DNA of 64,000 nt, taken from contig NZ_SOQZ01000006.1 of NCBI RefSeq assembly GCF_004366715.1, positions 62,001 through 126,000 on the forward strand, in the 5' to 3' direction. Positions 22,258-57,210 of this stretch are shown here, in pieces. The notes under the pieces were generated by a model. The model was not told the origin of the DNA. It was given only the letters and a program-made list of their open reading frames with translations, and searched no databases. Made by a program: the position numbers and the translations under genes. The DNA comes from Meridianimaribacter flavus. GTDB lineage: Bacteria > Bacteroidota > Bacteroidia > Flavobacteriales > Flavobacteriaceae. Numbering within the stretch: position 1 is the first letter of the stretch; each line of letters begins with the position of its first letter.

Positions 22258-22267
22258 GGAAGTTTAC

Positions 22268-22320
22268 ACTGTCCTTTAGCATTTTTTAATGAGGTTGCAA
22301 TCAGTCAAATCTCTCCTCTA
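22268..22320 (-). promoter_or_regulatory. SAM-II-like riboswitch in the metK leader
   Basis: Read on the minus strand the leader contains GATTTGACTGATTGCA, an A-rich linker and TGCTAAAGGACAG. These match the SAM-II aptamer in order and spacing: the GAUUU loop segment, UUGC pairing with GC-U-AA (bulged U), and a pyrimidine-rich CT pairing with GG. A short outer stem GAGG/CCTC (22315-22318 with 22291-22294) encloses the loop but needs a bulge, which lowers certainty. Position directly before metK supports the call. Confidence 0.6.
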
Positions 22321-22330
22321 AATTTGGCTA

Positions 22331-32632: not shown

Positions 32633-34099
32633 ATGGGAAAAGTAACAGGATTTTTAGAATATAAAAGAGAGGTTGAAGATTACAAACCTGTAGAAGAGCG
32701 TTTAAAAAATTATGAGGAGTTTGCTGTTAAAATGGCAAAAAGTCGAGTGGAAAATCAAGGCGCTCGCTGTATGGATTGTGGTATCCCTTTCTGTCATAGT
32801 GGTTGTCCTTTAGGAAATTTAATACCAGATTTTAACGATAAGGTTTATAACGGAAAATGGAAAGAAGCAGCCGAAATTTTACATGCAACCAATAACTTTC
32901 CAGAGTTTACAGGGCGTTTGTGTCCAGCGCCTTGCGAAGAAGCTTGTGTGCTTGGAATTAACGAAGATCCAGTAACTATTGAAAATATTGAAAAAAACAT
33001 TGTTGAAGAAGCCTTTAAAAATGGATGGATTACAGCAAAACCACCAAAATCTAGAACAGGAAAAAAAGTTGCGGTTATAGGTTCAGGACCTGCAGGTTTA
33101 GCAGCTGCGCAGCAGCTTAATCGTGCTGGTCATTCAGTGACGGTTTATGAGCGCGATGCAAAAGTAGGAGGCTTACTTCGTTATGGAATTCCAGATTTTA
33201 AAATGGAAAAGAACATCATTGATCGTCGTGTTGAGGTTATGAAAGAAGAAGGTATTCTTTTTGAAACCAATGCGCATGTTGGTGTTAATGTAGATGCAAG
33301 TGCGTTAAAAAAAGAACATGATGCTGTCGTGCTTTGTGGTGGTGCAACGGTTCGTCGTGGTTTGCCAATTCAAGGAGCTGATGCAAAAGGCGTTTATCAA
33401 GCTATGGATTTTTTAAAGCAAAACAACAAACGTGTTAGTGGTGAAAATTTTGAAGAAGCTGAAATTTCTGCAAAAGGAAAGCGTGTTATTGTTATTGGTG
33501 GTGGCGATACAGGAAGTGACTGTATAGGAACAAGTAATCGTCATGGAGCAGTTAGTGTAACTAATTTTGAAATATTAAGTAAGCCAACTATCGATCGTCC
33601 AGAAGCTCAACCTTGGCCTTTTTGGCCTATGCGTTTACGAACAAGTACATCACATAAAGAAGGTGTTGAGCGCGTGTTTAGTATTTCAACAAAAGCATTT
33701 AAAAAAGATATCGATGGAAACTTAACAGGTTTGGTGACTTGTGAGGTAGAATGGGTAAAAACTCCAGGGCAAAGACCTCAATTACGAGAAGTTCCTAATA
33801 GTGAAAAACATTGGGATTGCGATATGGTACTTTTAGCGTTAGGTTTTACAGGTTCCGAAACAACTTTGGTAGAACAGTTTGGACTAGAAACCGATATGCG
33901 AACTAATATAAAAGCGCCAGAAACCAACTATCAAACCAATGTTAATAATGTGTTTGTAGCTGGTGATATGCGTCGTGGTCAGTCGTTAATAGTTTGGGCG
34001 ATTTCCGAAGGAAGACAAGCAGCGCATCATGTAGATAAATATCTTATGGGAAAATCAGATTTACCACTTAAAGGCGATGGTGATTTACCTAGAATTTAA
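32633..34099 (+). CDS. gltD: Glutamate synthase, small subunit
   Basis: A 488-residue FAD and iron-sulfur protein that passes electrons from NADPH to GltB. The N-terminal Cys clusters CMDCGIPFCHSGCP and LCPAPCEEAC bind 4Fe-4S centres. VAVIGSGPAGLAAAQQL is the FAD Rossmann motif, and VIVIGGGDTGSDCIG the NADPH one. The C-terminus has the usual VFVAGDMRRGQSLIVWAI FAD-binding end. It is co-transcribed with gltB (three-base gap). The ilv leader starts soon after the stop. Confidence 0.97.
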   Translation: MGKVTGFLEYKREVEDYKPVEERLKNYEEFAVKMAKSRVENQGARCMDCGIPFCHSGCPLGNLIPDFNDKVYNGKWKEAAEILHATNNFPEFTGRLCPAPCEEACVLGINEDPVTIENIEKNIVEEAFKNGWITAKPPKSRTGKKVAVIGSGPAGLAAAQQLNRAGHSVTVYERDAKVGGLLRYGIPDFKMEKNIIDRRVEVMKEEGILFETNAHVGVNVDASALKKEHDAVVLCGGATVRRGLPIQGADAKGVYQAMDFLKQNNKRVSGENFEEAEISAKGKRVIVIGGGDTGSDCIGTSNRHGAVSVTNFEILSKPTIDRPEAQPWPFWPMRLRTSTSHKEGVERVFSISTKAFKKDIDGNLTGLVTCEVEWVKTPGQRPQLREVPNSEKHWDCDMVLLALGFTGSETTLVEQFGLETDMRTNIKAPETNYQTNVNNVFVAGDMRRGQSLIVWAISEGRQAAHHVDKYLMGKSDLPLKGDGDLPRI

Positions 34100-34106
34100 T
34101 TCTTGA

Positions 34107-34138
34107 TTTGCTTTTTTTAAATAAACGTGTCATATTTG
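34107..34138 (+). promoter_or_regulatory. Candidate promoter of the ilv leader
   Basis: TTTG at 34107, 20 bases and CATATTTG at 34131-34138 match the Bacteroidota promoter with one mismatch. Transcription would start only a few bases before the leader peptide ATG. Confidence 0.55.
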
Positions 34139-34149
34139 ATAAGACAAAA

Positions 34150-34212
34150 ATGAACAGACAAATTATTAATATCATTTCTATTATTATCGTTGTGATTATT
34201 TCGCATCGATGA
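34150..34212 (+). CDS. ilvL: Ile/Val leader peptide of the ilv attenuator
   Basis: A 20-codon reading frame encoding MNRQIINIISIIIVVIISHR. Nine of twenty codons are Ile and two are Val, all between codons 5 and 17. The frame ends with TGA at 34210-34212, 27 bases before the terminator region. Its composition matches the products of the operon that follows and its stop codon touches the antiterminator arm, so I call it a regulatory leader peptide and not a functional protein. It is too short for routine gene callers. The symbol is given by analogy to enteric ilvL; there is no sequence homology to claim. Confidence 0.85.
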   Translation: MNRQIINIISIIIVVIISHR

Positions 34213-34255
34213 GGAATGGTATTGTTGTAATATTTTATAAAAAAATGCCTTCCTC
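34211..34255 (+). promoter_or_regulatory. Antiterminator stem of the ilv attenuator
   Basis: GAGGAATGGTAT (34211-34222) pairs with ATGCCTTCCTC (34245-34255) over eleven positions with one bulged T and one G-U pair. This uses up the left arm of the terminator that follows. The left arm starts inside the leader stop codon. A ribosome that completes the leader therefore blocks this stem, whereas a ribosome stalled at the Ile codons leaves it free. Confidence 0.8.
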
Positions 34256-34275
34256 TTTTCGGAAGGCATTTTTTT
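34239..34275 (+). terminator. Attenuator terminator before ilvD
   Basis: TGCCTTCC and GGAAGGCA pair around a seven-base loop, with seven T after the stem. It lies 177 bases before ilvD. The interval from 34276 to 34452 holds nothing else recognisable. Confidence 0.9.
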
Positions 34276-34452
34276 ATGCATCAAATTCAAATTTTGAACA
34301 TCATAATCACATTAAACTAAAGTATTGATTTTCAGTTATTTAAATACTTGTTAAAAGTGTTGAGTTTAGATGAAAATATTACAATGAAAAAGAAAGAACA
34401 TTGCAAAAAATTACTTTAGAACAACCAAAAGGTTAGAAGATTAATAAACATA

Positions 34453-36132
34453 ATGAGTAAATTAAACAAATACAGTAAAACCGTAACACAAGATCCAACT
34501 CAACCTGCAGCACAAGCCATGTTGCATGCCATAGGATTGACAGATGCTGATTTTGAAAAACCAATAGTAGGTATAGCAAGCACAGGTTATGAAGGGAACC
34601 CATGTAATATGCATTTGAATGATTTGGCGAAATTGGTAAAACAAGGCACGCAAAATGAAGATGTTGTTGGATTGATTTTTAACACCATTGGTGTTAGTGA
34701 TGGTATTTCAATGGGAACACCTGGAATGCGTTATTCATTACCTTCTCGTGATATTATTGCCGATTCTATGGAAACAGTGGTGCAAGCCATGAGTTATGAT
34801 GGTTTGGTAACTGTTGTAGGCTGTGATAAAAATATGCCTGGGGCTTTAATGGCGATGATTCGTTTAAACAGACCTAGCATTTTGGTGTATGGTGGAACTA
34901 TTGATTCGGGTTGTCACAACGGACAAAAATTAGATGTAGTTTCAGCCTTTGAAGCTTGGGGCGGAAAAGTAGCAGGAACATTACCAGAAACTGAATACAA
35001 AAGCATAATTCAAAAAGCGTGTCCAGGAGCTGGTGCTTGTGGCGGTATGTATACAGCAAACACAATGGCTTCGGCTATTGAAGCATTAGGTATGGCGTTA
35101 CCGTTCAACTCATCCAATCCTGCAACAGGGAATGAGAAAAAAGAAGAGGCTGTAAAAGCTGGAGAAGCTGTTAGGTTATTGTTGGAAAAAGATATAAAAC
35201 CATCAGATATTATCTCTAAAAAATCTTTAGAAAATGCGGTGCGATTGGTAACGATTCTTGGCGGATCTACAAATGCCGTTTTACACTTTTTGGCAATTGC
35301 TAGAGCAGCAAAAATAGAATTCACACTCGAAGACTTTCAGCGTATAAGTGATACCACACCATTTTTAGCCGATTTAAAACCTAGCGGAAAATATCTTATG
35401 GAAGATGTTCATGCTGTTGGAGGTATTCCTGCGGTTATGAAATATTTACTAAAAAAAGGACTGCTTCATGGTGATTGCTTAACGGTTACTGGAAAAACTG
35501 TGGCTGAAAATTTATTGGATGTTGATGATTTAACCGAAGGGCAAGATGTTATAAAGCCACTAGAAGAACCTATAAAACCTACAGGACATTTACGTATGCT
35601 TTATGGAAATTTAGCCACTGAAGGAAGTGTGGCTAAAATCACAGGAAAAGAAGGTTTAAAATTTATCGGAAAAGCAAAAGTGTTTGAAGGCGAATATGCA
35701 GCAAATGATGGTATTCGCGATGGAAAAGTAGAAAAAGGCGATGTGGTTGTTATTCGATATGAAGGTCCTAAAGGTGGTCCAGGAATGCCTGAAATGCTAA
35801 AACCAACTGCGGCTATTATGGGAGCTGGTTTAGGAAAAGAAGTCGCTTTAATTACCGATGGTCGTTTTTCTGGTGGAACTCACGGTTTTGTTGTGGGACA
35901 TATTGCCCCAGAAGCTCAAGAAGGTGGCACAATCGCTTTGGTTAAAGATGGAGATATGATAACCATCGATGCAGAAACCAATTCCATTTCATTAGAAGTT
36001 TCAGAAGAAGAATTAGCAAAACGAAGAGAAAAATGGGTCGCACCAAAATTAAAGTTTGATAGAGGTGTACTTTACAAATATGCAAGAACTGTATCATCTG
36101 CTGCACAAGGTTGCGTAACAGATGAGTTTTAA
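34453..36132 (+). CDS. ilvD: Dihydroxy-acid dehydratase
   Basis: A 559-residue iron-sulfur enzyme of valine and isoleucine synthesis that dehydrates dihydroxy acids to 2-oxo acids. Motifs include the cluster and metal-binding cysteines in [13 protein letters not shown] and [16 protein letters not shown], and the C-terminal [20 protein letters not shown] with the catalytic Ser region. The length is normal. It is the first structural gene after the Ile/Val attenuator and is followed after 11 bases by ilvB. Confidence 0.97.
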
Positions 36133-36143
36133 ATACGTAGACT

Positions 36144-37880
36144 ATGGAGAATACTCAAACAATCACAAAAGACGAAAAACAAGTGGTAACATCAACGCGC
36201 ATTTCTGGAAGTGAAGCTGTGGTGCGTTGTTTATTAGCAGAAGGCGTCGAAACGGTCTACGGTTATCCTGGTGGTGCAATTATGCCAATTTATGACGAAT
36301 TATATAAGTATCAAGACAAACTACATCATGTACTAACACGCCATGAGCAAGGAGCAACACACGCGGCTCAAGGTTTTGCACGCATTTCGGGAAAAGTTGG
36401 TGTGGCAATGGCTACGTCTGGTCCTGGTGCTACGAATCTAATTACTGGTATTGCCGATGCGCAAATAGATTCAACACCTATGGTTTGTATTACAGGTCAA
36501 GTCGCATCACATTTATTAGGTAGTGATGCGTTTCAAGAAACTGATATTATTGGTATTTCTACACCAGTAACCAAGTGGAATCATCAAATCACAAAAGCAT
36601 CTGAAATTCCTGAAGTGATTGCAAAAGCATTTTACATTGCTAAAAGTGGAAGACCTGGACCTGTGTTAATCGATATTACTAAAGATGCTCAATTTGAAGA
36701 ATTCGATTTTGAATATAAAACTTGCGAAGCAATTCGTAGTTATAAACCTGTTCCAGAAACGCAACCAGAGCAAGTAAAAGCAGCTGCGGACTTAATCAAT
36801 AGTGCGAAAAAACCAATGATTGTTTGGGGCCAAGGCGTTATTTTGGGTGAAGCTGAAGAAGAATTAAAAGCAGTGATTGAAAAAGCAGGAATCCCTTCGG
36901 CTTGGACTATTTTAGGTGCTTCTGCAATTCCAACATCACATCCTTTAAATATTGGTATGGTTGGTATGCATGGTAATTATGCACCTAATAAATTAACCAA
37001 CGAGTGCGATGTGCTTATCGCAATTGGTATGCGTTTCGATGATCGAGTTACAGGAAATTTAGCAACCTATGCAAAACAAGCTAAAGTTATTCATTTTGAA
37101 ATTGATCCTGCTGAAGTTGATAAAAACGTGAAAACTGACATTGCTGTTTTAGGTGATGCCAAAACAAGTTTAGCGGCTTTGTTGCCTCTTTTAGAAGCAA
37201 AATCACATGATAATTGGCACAATGAGTTTAAAAAGCTATATGATGTTGAATTTGAAAAAGTCATAAAAAACGATTTGCACCCAACCAAAGAAGGCTTAAC
37301 AATGGGTGAAGTTTTAAAGCAAATCAATACTGAAACCAAAGGAGAAGCAGCTATTGTTAGCGACGTTGGTCAACATCAAATGATTGCTTGTCGTTATGCC
37401 GATTTTAAAGTTTCTAAAAGCAACATTACTTCTGGTGGCTTGGGTACAATGGGATTTGCGTTACCAGCTGCAATTGGTGCAAAAATGGCTGCGCCAAATC
37501 GTGAAGTTGTGGCTATAATTGGAGATGGTGGTTATCAAATGACCATTCAAGAATTAGGCACTATTTTTCAAACGCGTGTTCCTGTGAAAATAGTTGTTTT
37601 AAATAACGATTTCTTGGGAATGGTTCGTCAATGGCAACAACTGTTTTTTGATAGACGTTATGCATCAACCGAATTGGTTAATCCAGATTTTGTTCAGATT
37701 GCAAAAGGCTATCATATAGATGCTAAACGCGTCACAAAACGAGAAGAATTAGCTGATGCCGTTAAAGAAATGATCGCAAGCGATTCGGCTTACTTCCTAG
37801 AAGTTTGTGTAGAAAAAGAAGATAACGTATTTCCAATGATACCAACTGGAGCTTCGGTTTCAGATGTAAGATTAAGTTAA
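36144..37880 (+). CDS. ilvB: Acetolactate synthase, large subunit
   Basis: A 578-residue ThDP enzyme that condenses pyruvate with pyruvate or 2-oxobutyrate, the first common step to valine and isoleucine. It has the N-terminal YGYPGGAIMPIYDELY with the catalytic Glu region (HEQGATHAAQGFAR), a central FAD-binding domain, and the C-terminal ThDP/Mg motif GDGGYQMTIQELGTIFQ...VLNN. It is followed after two bases by its regulatory subunit. Confidence 0.97.
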   Translation: MENTQTITKDEKQVVTSTRISGSEAVVRCLLAEGVETVYGYPGGAIMPIYDELYKYQDKLHHVLTRHEQGATHAAQGFARISGKVGVAMATSGPGATNLITGIADAQIDSTPMVCITGQVASHLLGSDAFQETDIIGISTPVTKWNHQITKASEIPEVIAKAFYIAKSGRPGPVLIDITKDAQFEEFDFEYKTCEAIRSYKPVPETQPEQVKAAADLINSAKKPMIVWGQGVILGEAEEELKAVIEKAGIPSAWTILGASAIPTSHPLNIGMVGMHGNYAPNKLTNECDVLIAIGMRFDDRVTGNLATYAKQAKVIHFEIDPAEVDKNVKTDIAVLGDAKTSLAALLPLLEAKSHDNWHNEFKKLYDVEFEKVIKNDLHPTKEGLTMGEVLKQINTETKGEAAIVSDVGQHQMIACRYADFKVSKSNITSGGLGTMGFALPAAIGAKMAAPNREVVAIIGDGGYQMTIQELGTIFQTRVPVKIVVLNNDFLGMVRQWQQLFFDRRYASTELVNPDFVQIAKGYHIDAKRVTKREELADAVKEMIASDSAYFLEVCVEKEDNVFPMIPTGASVSDVRLS

Positions 37881-37882
37881 TT

Positions 37883-38413
37883 ATGAGTCAAGAAAACCAA
37901 ATATATACTGTATCTATTTACACCGAAAATAATATTGGATTGTTAAACCGAATTTCGGCAATTTTTCAACGTCGTCATATCAATATTGAAAGTATTGTGT
38001 CTTCTGTTTCCGAAATAAAAGGCGTATCGCGCTGGACAATCGTTGTAAAAGTTACCGAAGAACAAATCAAGAAAATCATCGGTCAAATAGAAAAGCAAGT
38101 TGAAGTCATTAAAGCGTTTTATCATACAGATGATGAAACCATTCATCAAGAATCTTGCTTGTTCAAAATAAAATCAGATTTGCTATTTGACGAACGTCAA
38201 ATTCAAAACATCATTAAAGACAGTAACGCTAATATTGTTACTGTAAATAAGAAATTCTTTGTCCTTGAAAAATCAGGAAGACGACAAGAGTTAGACGAAT
38301 TACATCAAAAATTAAAACCTTTTGGCATCATGCAATTTGTACGATCAGGACGTATTGCTGTGACCAAAGACGAAATGAAAATATCAGAAATGCTACTAGC
38401 GTTCAAAAACTAA
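37883..38413 (+). CDS. ilvN: Acetolactate synthase, regulatory subunit
   Basis: A 176-residue protein whose N-terminal ACT domain ([31 protein letters not shown], residues about 8-38) binds valine for feedback inhibition. A second ACT-like half follows. It works as a partner of the IlvB encoded two bases upstream. The length is similar to IlvH/IlvN proteins of other bacteria. Confidence 0.95.
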
Positions 38414-38423
38414 AACACACATC

Positions 38424-39926
38424 ATGTCAAATTATTTTAACACATTATCATTAAGAGAACAGTTAGCACAATTAGGAAAATGTAGATTTATGGAAGCGTC
38501 AGAATTTGAAGATGGCGTTGAAGTTTTATTAGGAAAGAAAATCGTAATCGTTGGTTGCGGTGCACAAGGACTTAACCAAGGCTTAAATATGAGAGATTCT
38601 GGATTAGATATTTCTTATGCTTTAAGACCACAAGCCATTGCCGAAAAGCGCCAATCGTATGTACAAGCAACCGATAATGGTTTCAACGTTGGAACTTACG
38701 AAGAGTTAATTCCAACTGCCGATTTAGTACTTAACCTCACACCAGATAAACAACACACCAATGTGGTTAACGCTGTCATGCCTTTAATGAAAAAAGGAGC
38801 GACATTAAGCTACTCGCACGGATTTAATATTGTTGAAGAAGGTACGCAAGTCCGTGAAGATTTAACCGTAATTATGGTGGCACCAAAATGCCCTGGAACC
38901 GAAGTTCGTGAGGAGTACAAACGTGGTTTTGGTGTGCCAACACTTATTGCGGTACATCCAGAAAATGATCCGCAAGGAAAAGGGTTGGCACAAGCAAAAG
39001 CCTATGCTGTGGCTACTGGTGGCGATCGCGCTGGTGTTTTAGAATCTTCTTTTGTTGCTGAAGTAAAGTCCGATCTTATGGGTGAGCAAACCATCTTGTG
39101 TGGTGTGTTGCAAACAGGTTCTATTTTATGTTTCGATAAAATGGTTGAAGAAGGTATCGAGCCAGAATATGCAGCAAAATTGATTCAATACGGTTGGGAA
39201 ACTATTACCGAAGCCTTAAAACATGGTGGTATTACCAATATGATGGATAGATTGTCTAACCCAGCAAAAATTGAAGCGTTTAAACTTTCTGAAGAATTGA
39301 AAGTGATAATGGCACCATTGTTCCAAAAGCATATGGATGATATCATTTCTGGTCATTTTTCTAAAACCATGATGGAAGATTGGGCAAATGATGACATTAA
39401 CCTTTTAACGTGGCGTGAAGCTACAGGCGAAACAGCTTTTGAAAAAACACTTTTAACGTCTGAAACTATTTCAGAACAAGAGTATTTTGACCACGGAACA
39501 TTATTGGTTGCGTTTGTAAAAGCAGGTGTTGAATTAGCTTACGAAACAATGGTTAGTGCTGGGATTATTGAAGATTCTGCGTATTACGAATCGCTTCATG
39601 AGTTACCATTAATCGCAAATACCATTGCTCGTAAAAAGTTATACGAAATGAATCGTGTGATTTCAGATACTGCCGAATATGGTTGCTATTTATTCGATCA
39701 TGCAGCAAAACCATTATTGGTAGATTTCATGAAAACTGTTTCAACCGATGTTGTCGGGAAACCATTTGCAACTAAAAATGATGTTGATAATATTGAATTG
39801 ATAAAAGTAAATGAAGCTATAAGAAGTCACTCTATCGAAACTGTAGGTAAACGTTTACGTACAGCAATGACAGCCATGAAAGTGATAAAAACCGAAGCTA
39901 TAAAAGCCGAAGCTGTTTTATCTTAA
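38424..39926 (+). CDS. ilvC: Ketol-acid reductoisomerase, long (class II) form
   Basis: A 500-residue enzyme that isomerises and reduces acetolactate using NADPH and Mg. The Rossmann motif is [19 protein letters not shown] near residue 42. The metal-site region [13 protein letters not shown] is followed by two helical knotted domains. The length places it with the plant- and E. coli-like class II enzymes, not the roughly 330-residue class I. It is the fourth gene of the ilv operon. Confidence 0.97.
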
Positions 39927-39934
39927 TACAACAA

Positions 39935-41200
39935 ATGAAAGATACACAAACCACATATTTTCCAACATTAGAAGCGGTAATTGCTGCTGCTGATAAATTG
40001 AAATCGGTAGTAAATCAAACACCGTTAACCTCAAATTTATACTATTCAAAACTGTACGGTAGCAACATCTTGTTTAAGCGCGAAGATTTGCAAATGGTAC
40101 GTTCGTATAAAATTCGAGGTGCTTACAATAAAATGGCTTCATTGTCTCAAAGTGAAGTAAAAAATGGTGTGGTTTGTGCCAGTGCAGGAAATCATGCGCA
40201 AGGTGTGGCTTTATCTTGCAAATTGCTTAAAATTCACGGTACAATTTATATGCCTTCGCCAACACCAAACCAAAAAATTGAACAGGTAAAAATGTTTGGC
40301 GAAGATTATATTAATGTCGTTTTAGAAGGTGATACGTTTGATGATTCTTACCATGCTGCTATGCGAGAGCAACAAGAAACAGGCAAGGCTTTTATTCATC
40401 CATTTAATGATGAAAAAGTTATTGAAGGACAAGCAACCGTAGGTTGGGAATTGTTTAACCAAGCGCCAAAACCTATAGATTATGTTTTTGTGCCTGTTGG
40501 TGGTGGCGGATTAGCATCTGGTTTGTCAACTATTTTTAAGCAATTGTCTCCAAATACAAAAATTATTGGTGTTGAACCTACTGGAGCACCATCAATGTCA
40601 ACATCAATTAAAAATGATGAGAATACAGAGCTCGAACACATTGAGAACTTTGTAGATGGCGCTGCAGTAAAAAAGGTAGGTGATAAAACTTTTGATATTT
40701 GTAAGCAGAATTTAGACGATATGATTACCATTCCTGAAGGGAAAATTTGTCAGACTATTTTAGAGCTTTACAATAAAGAGGCTATTGTAGTTGAGCCTGC
40801 TGGCGCGTTGAGTATTGCTGCTTTAGATGTGTTTGCCGAAGACATCAAAGGAAAAAATGTTGTTTGTGTAATAAGTGGTAGCAATAATGATATAACACGT
40901 ACTGCTGAAATAAAAGAGCGTGCATTGTTGTATTCAAATTTGAAGCACTATTTCATTGTGAAATTCCCACAACGTGCTGGAGCTTTAAAAGAATTTGTGG
41001 TAGATATTTTAGGTCCAAACGATGATATTGCGCATTTTGAGTATACAAAAAAATCCAATCGCGATACTGGTTCGGCAGTGGTTGGTATTGAGCTAAAATC
41101 TCAAGAAGATTTAGAACCATTAATCACCAAAATGAAAAACAGAAATTTTTATGGTGACTATCTCAATAATAAGCCTGATTTATTTCAGTTTTTAGTCTAA
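39935..41200 (+). CDS. ilvA: Threonine dehydratase (deaminase)
   Basis: A 421-residue PLP enzyme that deaminates threonine to 2-oxobutyrate, the entry to isoleucine. The PLP lysine lies in SYKIRGAYNKM near residue 57. The phosphate-binding loop is VGGGGLASG. A single ACT-like regulatory domain (about residues 325-421, HYFIVKFPQRAGALKEFV) allows isoleucine feedback. The length resembles the short Bacillus-type enzyme, not the two-ACT enteric form. It is the last gene of the ilv operon. Confidence 0.95.
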   Translation: MKDTQTTYFPTLEAVIAAADKLKSVVNQTPLTSNLYYSKLYGSNILFKREDLQMVRSYKIRGAYNKMASLSQSEVKNGVVCASAGNHAQGVALSCKLLKIHGTIYMPSPTPNQKIEQVKMFGEDYINVVLEGDTFDDSYHAAMREQQETGKAFIHPFNDEKVIEGQATVGWELFNQAPKPIDYVFVPVGGGGLASGLSTIFKQLSPNTKIIGVEPTGAPSMSTSIKNDENTELEHIENFVDGAAVKKVGDKTFDICKQNLDDMITIPEGKICQTILELYNKEAIVVEPAGALSIAALDVFAEDIKGKNVVCVISGSNNDITRTAEIKERALLYSNLKHYFIVKFPQRAGALKEFVVDILGPNDDIAHFEYTKKSNRDTGSAVVGIELKSQEDLEPLITKMKNRNFYGDYLNNKPDLFQFLV

Positions 41201-43469: not shown

Positions 43470-44440
43470 TTAAAGCAGGAATAATTGGTGGCGCAGGTTA
43501 CACAGCAGGCGAGTTGGTTAGAATATTAATCAATCATCCTGAAGTGAATATAGATTTTGTGTACAGCACATCCAATGCAGGCAATACTATTGGTAAAGTA
43601 CATCAAGATTTAATTGGTGAAGATGTATCGTTTTCAAATGAAATTAATCCAAATGTAGATGTTGTCTTTTTATGTTTAGGTCACGGAAATTCTAAAGCGT
43701 TTTTAAGTAAAAATGAATTTTCAGCTGAAACCAAAATTATAGATTTAAGCAACGATTTTAGACTCGAAAACGATAAAATTTTCGATGGTAAAACATTCGT
43801 TTACGGTCTACCTGAATTAAATAAATCGGACATAACACAAGCGGATTATATTGCAAATCCTGGTTGTTTTGCAACTGCCATACAATTAGCATTATTGCCT
43901 TTAGCAAATGCAAGATCATTAATCGAAGATGTGCACGTAAATGCAGTTACAGGTGCAACTGGTGCAGGAACATCATTATCTGCGACTACGCATTTTACAT
44001 GGCGAAATAACAATTTTTCGTATTACAAACCTTTTACACATCAGCATTTAGGTGAAATTAATCAGTCGGTAAAATTGTTACAAGATAATTTCAATACACA
44101 GATCAACTTTATGCCAAATCGAGGTGATTTTTCAAGAGGAATTTTTGCAACGCTTTACACAAAATTTGATGGTAGTATAGAAGATGTCAAACAGCTGTTT
44201 AATGACTTTTATAAAGACGCAAAATTCACTTTGATTTCAGATGAAAACATTCATTTAAAACAAGTAGTTAACACCAATAATTGCATACTTCATTTACATA
44301 AACACGAGGATAAATTATTGGTGACGAGCATAATTGATAATTTACTAAAAGGCGCATCAGGACAAGCCGTGCAAAACATGAATTTAATGTTTGGTTTTGA
44401 AGAAACAGCTGGTTTAAAATTAAAGGCGAGTTATTTTTAA
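43466..44440 (+). CDS. argC: N-acyl-glutamyl-phosphate reductase
   Basis: A 324-residue NADPH-dependent reductase of N-acylglutamyl phosphate. The Rossmann motif is IIGGAGYTAGELVRIL at the N-terminus, and the catalytic Cys lies in IANPGCFATAIQLALLPL near residue 133. The length is typical. A composite repeat element begins 12 bases after the stop, before proC. Confidence 0.96.
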   Translation: MIKAGIIGGAGYTAGELVRILINHPEVNIDFVYSTSNAGNTIGKVHQDLIGEDVSFSNEINPNVDVVFLCLGHGNSKAFLSKNEFSAETKIIDLSNDFRLENDKIFDGKTFVYGLPELNKSDITQADYIANPGCFATAIQLALLPLANARSLIEDVHVNAVTGATGAGTSLSATTHFTWRNNNFSYYKPFTHQHLGEINQSVKLLQDNFNTQINFMPNRGDFSRGIFATLYTKFDGSIEDVKQLFNDFYKDAKFTLISDENIHLKQVVNTNNCILHLHKHEDKLLVTSIIDNLLKGASGQAVQNMNLMFGFEETAGLKLKASYF

Positions 44441-56962: not shown

Positions 56963-57062
56963 TTTTTTAAAGAGATTTTATAAAAAAAATCAAAATTATT
57001 TGGATATTAAAATTTTCTAACTGAATATTTGCACTCACAAAGTTCAAATTACTTATTGAAAT

Positions 57063-57210
57063 GTTATCAAGAAAGGTGGAGGGAATAGACCCTATGAAAC
57101 CTTGGCAACCCTTAAATTCCTATGGAAATAGGAATCTTTATTTAAGAAGGTGCTAAATTCTACTTTTTGTTATTTCGAGTATAATCGAAAATTTCAATTA
57201 GATAGATAAC
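57063..57210 (+). promoter_or_regulatory. S-box (SAM-I) riboswitch
   Basis: The closing stem GTTATC (57063-57068) pairs with GATAAC (57205-57210). Between them are the conserved pieces in order: AAGAAAGGTGGAGGGA, ACCCTATGAAACC, TTGGCAACCC, an ATTCCTAT/ATAGGAAT hairpin and AAGGTGCTAAATTC. The downstream region to 57323 has two weak hairpins (AATTACA/TGTAATT and CCTC/GAGG with a T-rich tail) that may form the expression platform. It controls the metX-thrA and metZ genes. Confidence 0.93.

Follow-up and report, generated by a model that had tools for sequence, protein, structure and literature searches.

A probable ribosome-mediated isoleucine/valine attenuator before the ilvD operon of Meridianimaribacter flavus and its conservation in Flavobacteriaceae

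Does a short isoleucine-rich frame upstream of ilvD allow the ribosome to decide whether the Ile/Val operon of Meridianimaribacter flavus is transcribed? In the window (the whole stretch of 64,000 nucleotides that we analyzed), ilvD is the first gene of the predicted controlled operon ilvD-ilvB-ilvN-ilvC-ilvA, which covers the whole Ile/Val pathway except for the transaminase. Upstream of the leader lie gltB and gltD (the end of gltD is at 34099). Elsewhere, the window contains a SAM-II riboswitch (22266–22324, minus strand) and a SAM-I riboswitch (57061–57194, plus strand), both above the Rfam cut-off, and also a Flavo-1 RNA (Rfam RF01705, 44451–44548) in an arginine cluster, directly 3' of an argC-like gene that ends at 44440.

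An original prediction, made from the letters of the window, placed a promoter, an Ile/Val leader frame, and two mutually exclusive hairpins in front of ilvD. We conclude, with a probability of about 0.93, that the region 34107–34276 is a ribosome-mediated transcription attenuator with a leader peptide, of the trp/ilvGMEDA kind. The features of the locus are collected in Table 1.

Table 1. Features of the ilvD leader region and the operon behind it (window coordinates).
Feature	Position	Strand	Basis
Predicted Bacteroidota-type promoter P1: TTTG (34107–34110), 20-nt spacer, CATATTTG (34131–34138)	34107..34138	+	sequence
Leader peptide ORF MNRQIINIISIIIVVIISHR, Ile/Val regulatory codons; start ATG 34150, stop TGA 34210–34212	34150..34212	+	sequence; homologous leaders before ilvD in dozens of genera
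Region 1, inside the Ile codons; pairs with region 2 at 34213–34223	34168..34178	+	MFE of whole leader
Nested hairpin where the leader ORF ends, 34190–34195 with 34201–34206	34190..34206	+	whole-leader fold
Region 2, left arm of antiterminator; begins within the leader stop codon	34211..34223	+	folding with region 3; conservation
Region 3, right arm of antiterminator (34244–34255) and left arm of terminator (34240–34253)	34240..34255	+	folding, alignments
Intrinsic terminator, 14-pair stem 34240–34253 with 34261–34274, T-run to 34276	34240..34276	+	folding, covariation
ATG-initiated Ile-rich frame MHQIQILNIIITLN after the U-tract	34277..34321	+	sequence; position is that of the second unit of tandem relatives
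Conserved block TTGAACATCATA...TTGATnnTCAG...TTGAnTTTA, between attenuator and ilvD	34294..34373	+	alignment of 31 loci
ilvD, dihydroxy-acid dehydratase, first gene of predicted controlled operon	34453..36132	+	Pfam ILVD_EDD_N, ILV_EDD_C
ilvB, ilvN, ilvC, ilvA, close behind ilvD	36144..41200	+	Pfam TPP_enzyme N/M/C, ALS_ss_C, KARI_N/C, PALP + Thr_dehydrat_C

The leader frame has the 20 codons, including nine Ile and two Val, that the original prediction counted, and so 11/20 of its codons specify end products of ilvDBNCA. Its homologs before ilvD in dozens of genera have a consensus of about MKKQILNIISIIVIVIISQG. When we scanned both strands of the window (128 kb of strand) for an Ile/Val/Leu-rich ORF of 10–40 codons with a T-tailed hairpin, there were three matches. 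The two others are weaker and have K/L-rich and Q/L-rich ORFs, neither of which is Ile-rich.

The boxes of P1, the promoter that had been proposed just upstream of the leader, are a fair match to the Bacteroidota −33/−7 type. P1 was not reported by the promoter scanner, whose model is of the E. coli type (sigma-70) only. In F. psychrophilum, the −7 box is placed at −12 to −5 relative to the start site (PMC9723704). The −7-like box of P1 ends 11 nt 5' of the leader ATG; because we applied the published placement to the window, we predict that transcription starts at about 34143 and that the 5'UTR is about 7 nt. The start would be near-leaderless, in line with the original prediction. The short distance from box to ATG is kept among Flavobacteriaceae. 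A TAnnTTTG-like box lies 6–14 nt before the leader ATG in 34 of 99 units, versus 15% in shuffles, and the distance in relatives peaks at 4–5 and 8–10 nt (predicted 5'UTRs of 0–1 and 4–6 nt). Predicted leader 5'UTRs are longer in Flavobacterium and Chitinophagaceae. As judged from these predicted starts, the near-leaderless beginning of the leader is conserved among Flavobacteriaceae. It is uncommon but not unique, because 5.5% of the F. psychrophilum mRNAs with mapped starts are leaderless (PMC9723704).

Between the leader and ilvD, the T-tailed terminator that had been predicted at 34239–34275 folds with an energy of −19.1 kcal/mol (z −6.4), and a genome-wide search finds its pattern once. 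(A fixed-model terminator scanner gave no call at 34240–34276.) The antiterminator had been described as eleven pairs with one bulge, 34211–34222 with 34245–34255, with a left arm that begins in the leader stop codon. We found this structure together with the additional pair T34223–A34244: 34211–34216 pairs with 34250–34255, T34217 is bulged, and 34218–34223 pairs with 34244–34249, which gives twelve pairs. Regions 2 and 3 folded alone reach −16.8 kcal/mol (z −5.8). The antiterminator and the terminator exclude each other, and the antiterminator arm is matched to the terminator of each lineage. Neither the pairing of regions 1 and 2 nor the nested hairpin was in the original prediction; with the 1:2 pairing, regions 2 and 3 each have two partners, which is the classic layout of four segments. 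The folding energy of the whole leader is −45.6, as compared to −21.5 ± 3.7 for shuffles.

A structured leader with a terminator ahead of a biosynthetic operon could instead be a metabolite riboswitch or a T-box, in which case the short frame would be irrelevant. This is extremely improbable. No Rfam family, T-boxes and known riboswitches included, matches at the cut-off within 34080–34460, and the best sub-threshold match (34169–34276, 32.4 bits versus a gathering threshold of 55) is to Thr_leader (RF00506), which is itself a leader-peptide attenuator with the same architecture. (RF00506 is the enterobacterial Thr/Ile leader, whereas the host here is a flavobacterium.) Also, the conservation of the region tracks an Ile/Val reading frame that has its stop codon at the start of region 2.

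The original prediction looked to relatives for a conserved Ile/Val frame and for compensating changes in the stems. We sampled the ilvD upstream regions of 80 Flavobacteriaceae genera (one was too short, leaving 79) and counted as a match any Ile/Val/Leu-rich ORF with a strong T-tailed hairpin no more than 120 nt downstream. Besides the window, 43 of the 79 genera have a leader and terminator before ilvD, versus 2 of 240 shuffles, which kept dinucleotides in blocks only. Of the 80 named loci that formed a second set (Bacteroidota and their neighbors, taken from a genome collection), 49 have both elements, although a few of these matches are weak and a few species are shared with the family set. 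The second set extends the matches to Weeksellaceae, Chitinophagaceae, Saprospiraceae, Cyclobacteriaceae, and an ignavibacterium. Roughly half the relatives that we sampled lack a match at ilvD: in some of them ilvE precedes ilvD, and others are truly without an attenuator (Lacinutrix, L083). At some loci the attenuator sits before ilvE rather than before ilvD. On a tree of IlvD, the attenuator units are scattered, and the tree is too coarse to date gains or losses.

Flavobacteriaceae conserve both the frame and the stems, and their terminator stems show compensating changes. In an alignment of 23 genera, 97% of the terminator cells are paired, with double changes in 5 of 9 pairs (0/500 shuffles). 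The antiterminator of the same number of genera has 75.5% of its cells paired, a percentage that 57 of 500 shuffles reached, and it shows little covariation because both of its arms are strongly conserved. Across 16 genera, 75% of the cells of the 1:2 stem are paired, with double changes in 3 of 11 pairs, and the nested hairpin has 92.7% of its cells paired.

For the antiterminator, we therefore replaced the weak covariation of the alignment with a comparison of classes in which the arms are swapped. The units of Flavobacteriaceae fall into two classes that differ in the terminator and in region 2. Class A, to which the window belongs, has the terminator GCCTTCC/GGAAGGC and the region 2 GGAAnGG; class B has the terminator CCTGTATC/GATACAGG and the region 2 TGATACAG, which usually contains the TGA stop of the leader. 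Cross-class pairing of region 2 with region 3 is weak (−7.0 and −5.2 kcal/mol, versus −9.6 and −14.0 kcal/mol for each class's own pair). The terminator covariation score of each class was reached by no shuffle. In class B, the score of the 1:2 stem is also beyond the shuffles (92% of cells paired), and the antiterminator has 89% of its cells paired with little covariation.

Between the attenuator and ilvD lies a conserved block, which is new here. Its TGAnTTTA mark is correctly placed in 30 of 96 anchored loci, versus 2–4 at other offsets, and an attenuator was detected at 15 of those 30 loci but not at the other 15. The block is the sole such site in the genome of M. flavus, and when 60 genomes were searched for the exact pattern, it occurred at five places, of which three are at ilvD. 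(In Chryseobacterium, the block is partly present between ilvE and ilvD.) The block shows no enrichment of the −7-like box (7/30 versus 5 expected), so a second sigma-A promoter within it is unsupported by box enrichment.

The block bears on two other explanations of the locus. First, the hairpin could be just the terminator of gltBD, with ilvD transcribed from its own downstream promoter and the Ile-rich frame arising by chance in A+T-rich DNA. The end of gltD just upstream would fit, as would a conserved block between the terminator and ilvD that some relatives have without an attenuator. However, dozens of genera have a homologous leader with a matched antiterminator arm, also before ilvE, and the box counts above speak against a promoter in the block, so we consider this explanation very unlikely. 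Second, the attenuator could be real but only one of two inputs, if the block binds a regulator or holds a second, Ile-independent basal promoter. The alignment of the block in loci with and without the attenuator, and its restriction to ilvD in the genome, favor this; on the other hand, no promoter box is enriched, and regulator binding to the block is putative. We give two inputs somewhat less than an even chance. This possibility is compatible with attenuation rather than exclusive of it: the block may be an operator or a promoter, possibly one that bypasses the attenuator, and attenuation is perhaps not the sole control.

If the locus is an attenuator, then the position of the ribosome should choose between the two hairpins, as the original prediction proposed. 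We modeled this by equilibrium folding of the RNA up to region 3, with a ribosome masking 27 nt (an assumed footprint). In the model of the window, a ribosome stalled with its A-site at codons 2–17 frees region 2, and about 10.7 antiterminator pairs are expected; at the stop codon it covers region 2 instead, and the expected number falls to 0.24. The whole leader at equilibrium folds as the terminator. We modeled 103 units. Placing the ribosome on the middle Ile/Val codon leaves 5 or more antiterminator pairs in 92 of them, and moving it to the stop removes at least half of these pairs in 89, which we count as switching; with region 2 shuffled, 18% switch as required. (The low-scoring matches L106, L114_0, L119_0, L145, L150, and L154 and the second unit of L112 did not act as attenuators when modeled, and we left them out of the count of tandem units below.) Pairing of regions 1 and 2 forms in the whole-leader MFE, but in the model without a ribosome it loses to 2:3 before region 4 is made, and therefore its role as a protector rests on the order of folding. 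Folding at equilibrium with an assumed footprint supports the logic of the switch and is not a measure of it.

We propose a mechanism that builds on the sequence parts that we observed, on how they are conserved, on terminator covariation, and on the modeled dependence on ribosome position; we infer the start site, the translation of the leader, and the response to starvation. RNA polymerase would start at about 34143, and a ribosome would begin the leader near the 5' end of the transcript. If charged tRNA-Ile (and Val) is plentiful, the ribosome would reach the stop codon and cover region 2. Region 3 would then be free, the terminator (34240–34274) would form, and transcription would end before ilvD. 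If Ile (or Val) is scarce, the ribosome would stall on codons 5–17 and cover region 1, and region 2 would be free to form the 2:3 antiterminator before region 4 is made. Read-through into all five genes of the operon would follow.

Some relatives have two Ile/Val leaders in series. We found these in six genera of the family (L014, L024, L026, L037, L047, and L054) and in at least seven named loci (L086 Gaetbulibacter, L089 Tenacibaculum, L094 Aquimarina, L108 an ignavibacterium, L109 Lutibacter, and L131 and L140 Chryseobacterium), or at least 13 relatives in all. In the family tandems, a short distance separates the T-run of the first terminator from the start of the second leader, which mostly lacks a promoter box of its own. 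The window has one attenuator unit, and its frame at 34277–34321 is without a second terminator. With low confidence, we read this frame as possibly a decayed second leader; it could also have arisen by chance in A+T-rich DNA. We give even odds to the proposal that the ilv operon of Flavobacteriaceae ancestrally had a class A and then a class B attenuator, the first of them almost leaderless, that lineages like that of the window lost one, and that the block adds an input. If so, the ancestral arrangement would be a two-step gate on one signal. In Salmonella, the mgtCBR mRNA has tandem attenuators that respond to two signals, ATP and proline (PMC3641672). Like mgtCBR, several of the tandem relatives carry two successive leader ORFs on a single mRNA, but both leaders are of the Ile/Val type, and each has a terminator of its own. 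We found no case of tandem leader-peptide attenuators for one amino acid in the open-licence literature, and the serial Ile/Val attenuators are new here. In several genera, they offer a natural test of the contribution that a second attenuator makes when the amino acids are the same.

This organism appears to use leader-peptide control habitually, because the same genome has leader frames of three other kinds. A His leader, MNFIQLHHHHFHTCTQAS, precedes hisG (L163, reverse complement 1173–1229), and a Trp leader, MNTILNNTWWWMSRNSIFVN, precedes a trpE-like gene (L165, reverse complement 755–817), each with a T-tailed terminator. A Thr/Ser/Ile-rich frame precedes the bifunctional thrA (L171, 239–346), with a predicted 5'UTR of 4 nt and without a clear terminator; it may work differently from the attenuators that have one.

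Attenuation of this kind is already known. The ilvGMEDA and ilvBN operons of E. coli have leader-peptide attenuators for the Ile/Val pathway. They share with the window an Ile/Val-rich leader, a competing antiterminator and terminator, and an Ile/Val pathway operon; in contrast, the window has a Bacteroidota promoter, an almost leaderless ORF, and no Leu codons in the leader. The likeness is one of architecture, and we claim no kinship of sequence. A comparative study by Vitreschak and others in 2004 reportedly also predicted such attenuators in Bacteroidetes. Within the family there were prior hints as well. The original prediction knew of no experimental case in Flavobacteriaceae, but strong clues to leader-peptide attenuation upstream of amino-acid biosynthesis operons had already been published for F. 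psychrophilum, a member of the same family, in a 2021 transcriptome whose main text does not name ilv (PMC9723704). The ilvB-II, ilvB-OMG, and ilvB motifs also have leader peptides rich in branched-chain residues before an ilv gene, with attenuation proposed, and the Corynebacterium ilvB-II was tested with a reporter (PMC10272879); those motifs belong to other lineages and other genes. The added interest of the ilvD attenuator is the depth of its conservation (dozens of related genera), its near-leaderless leaders, and its serial units. Attenuation sensed by the ribosome is kept before an Ile/Val operon across much of a phylum that makes little use of Shine-Dalgarno sites, and in Flavobacteriaceae the leaders begin within a few bases of the predicted 5' end of the mRNA.
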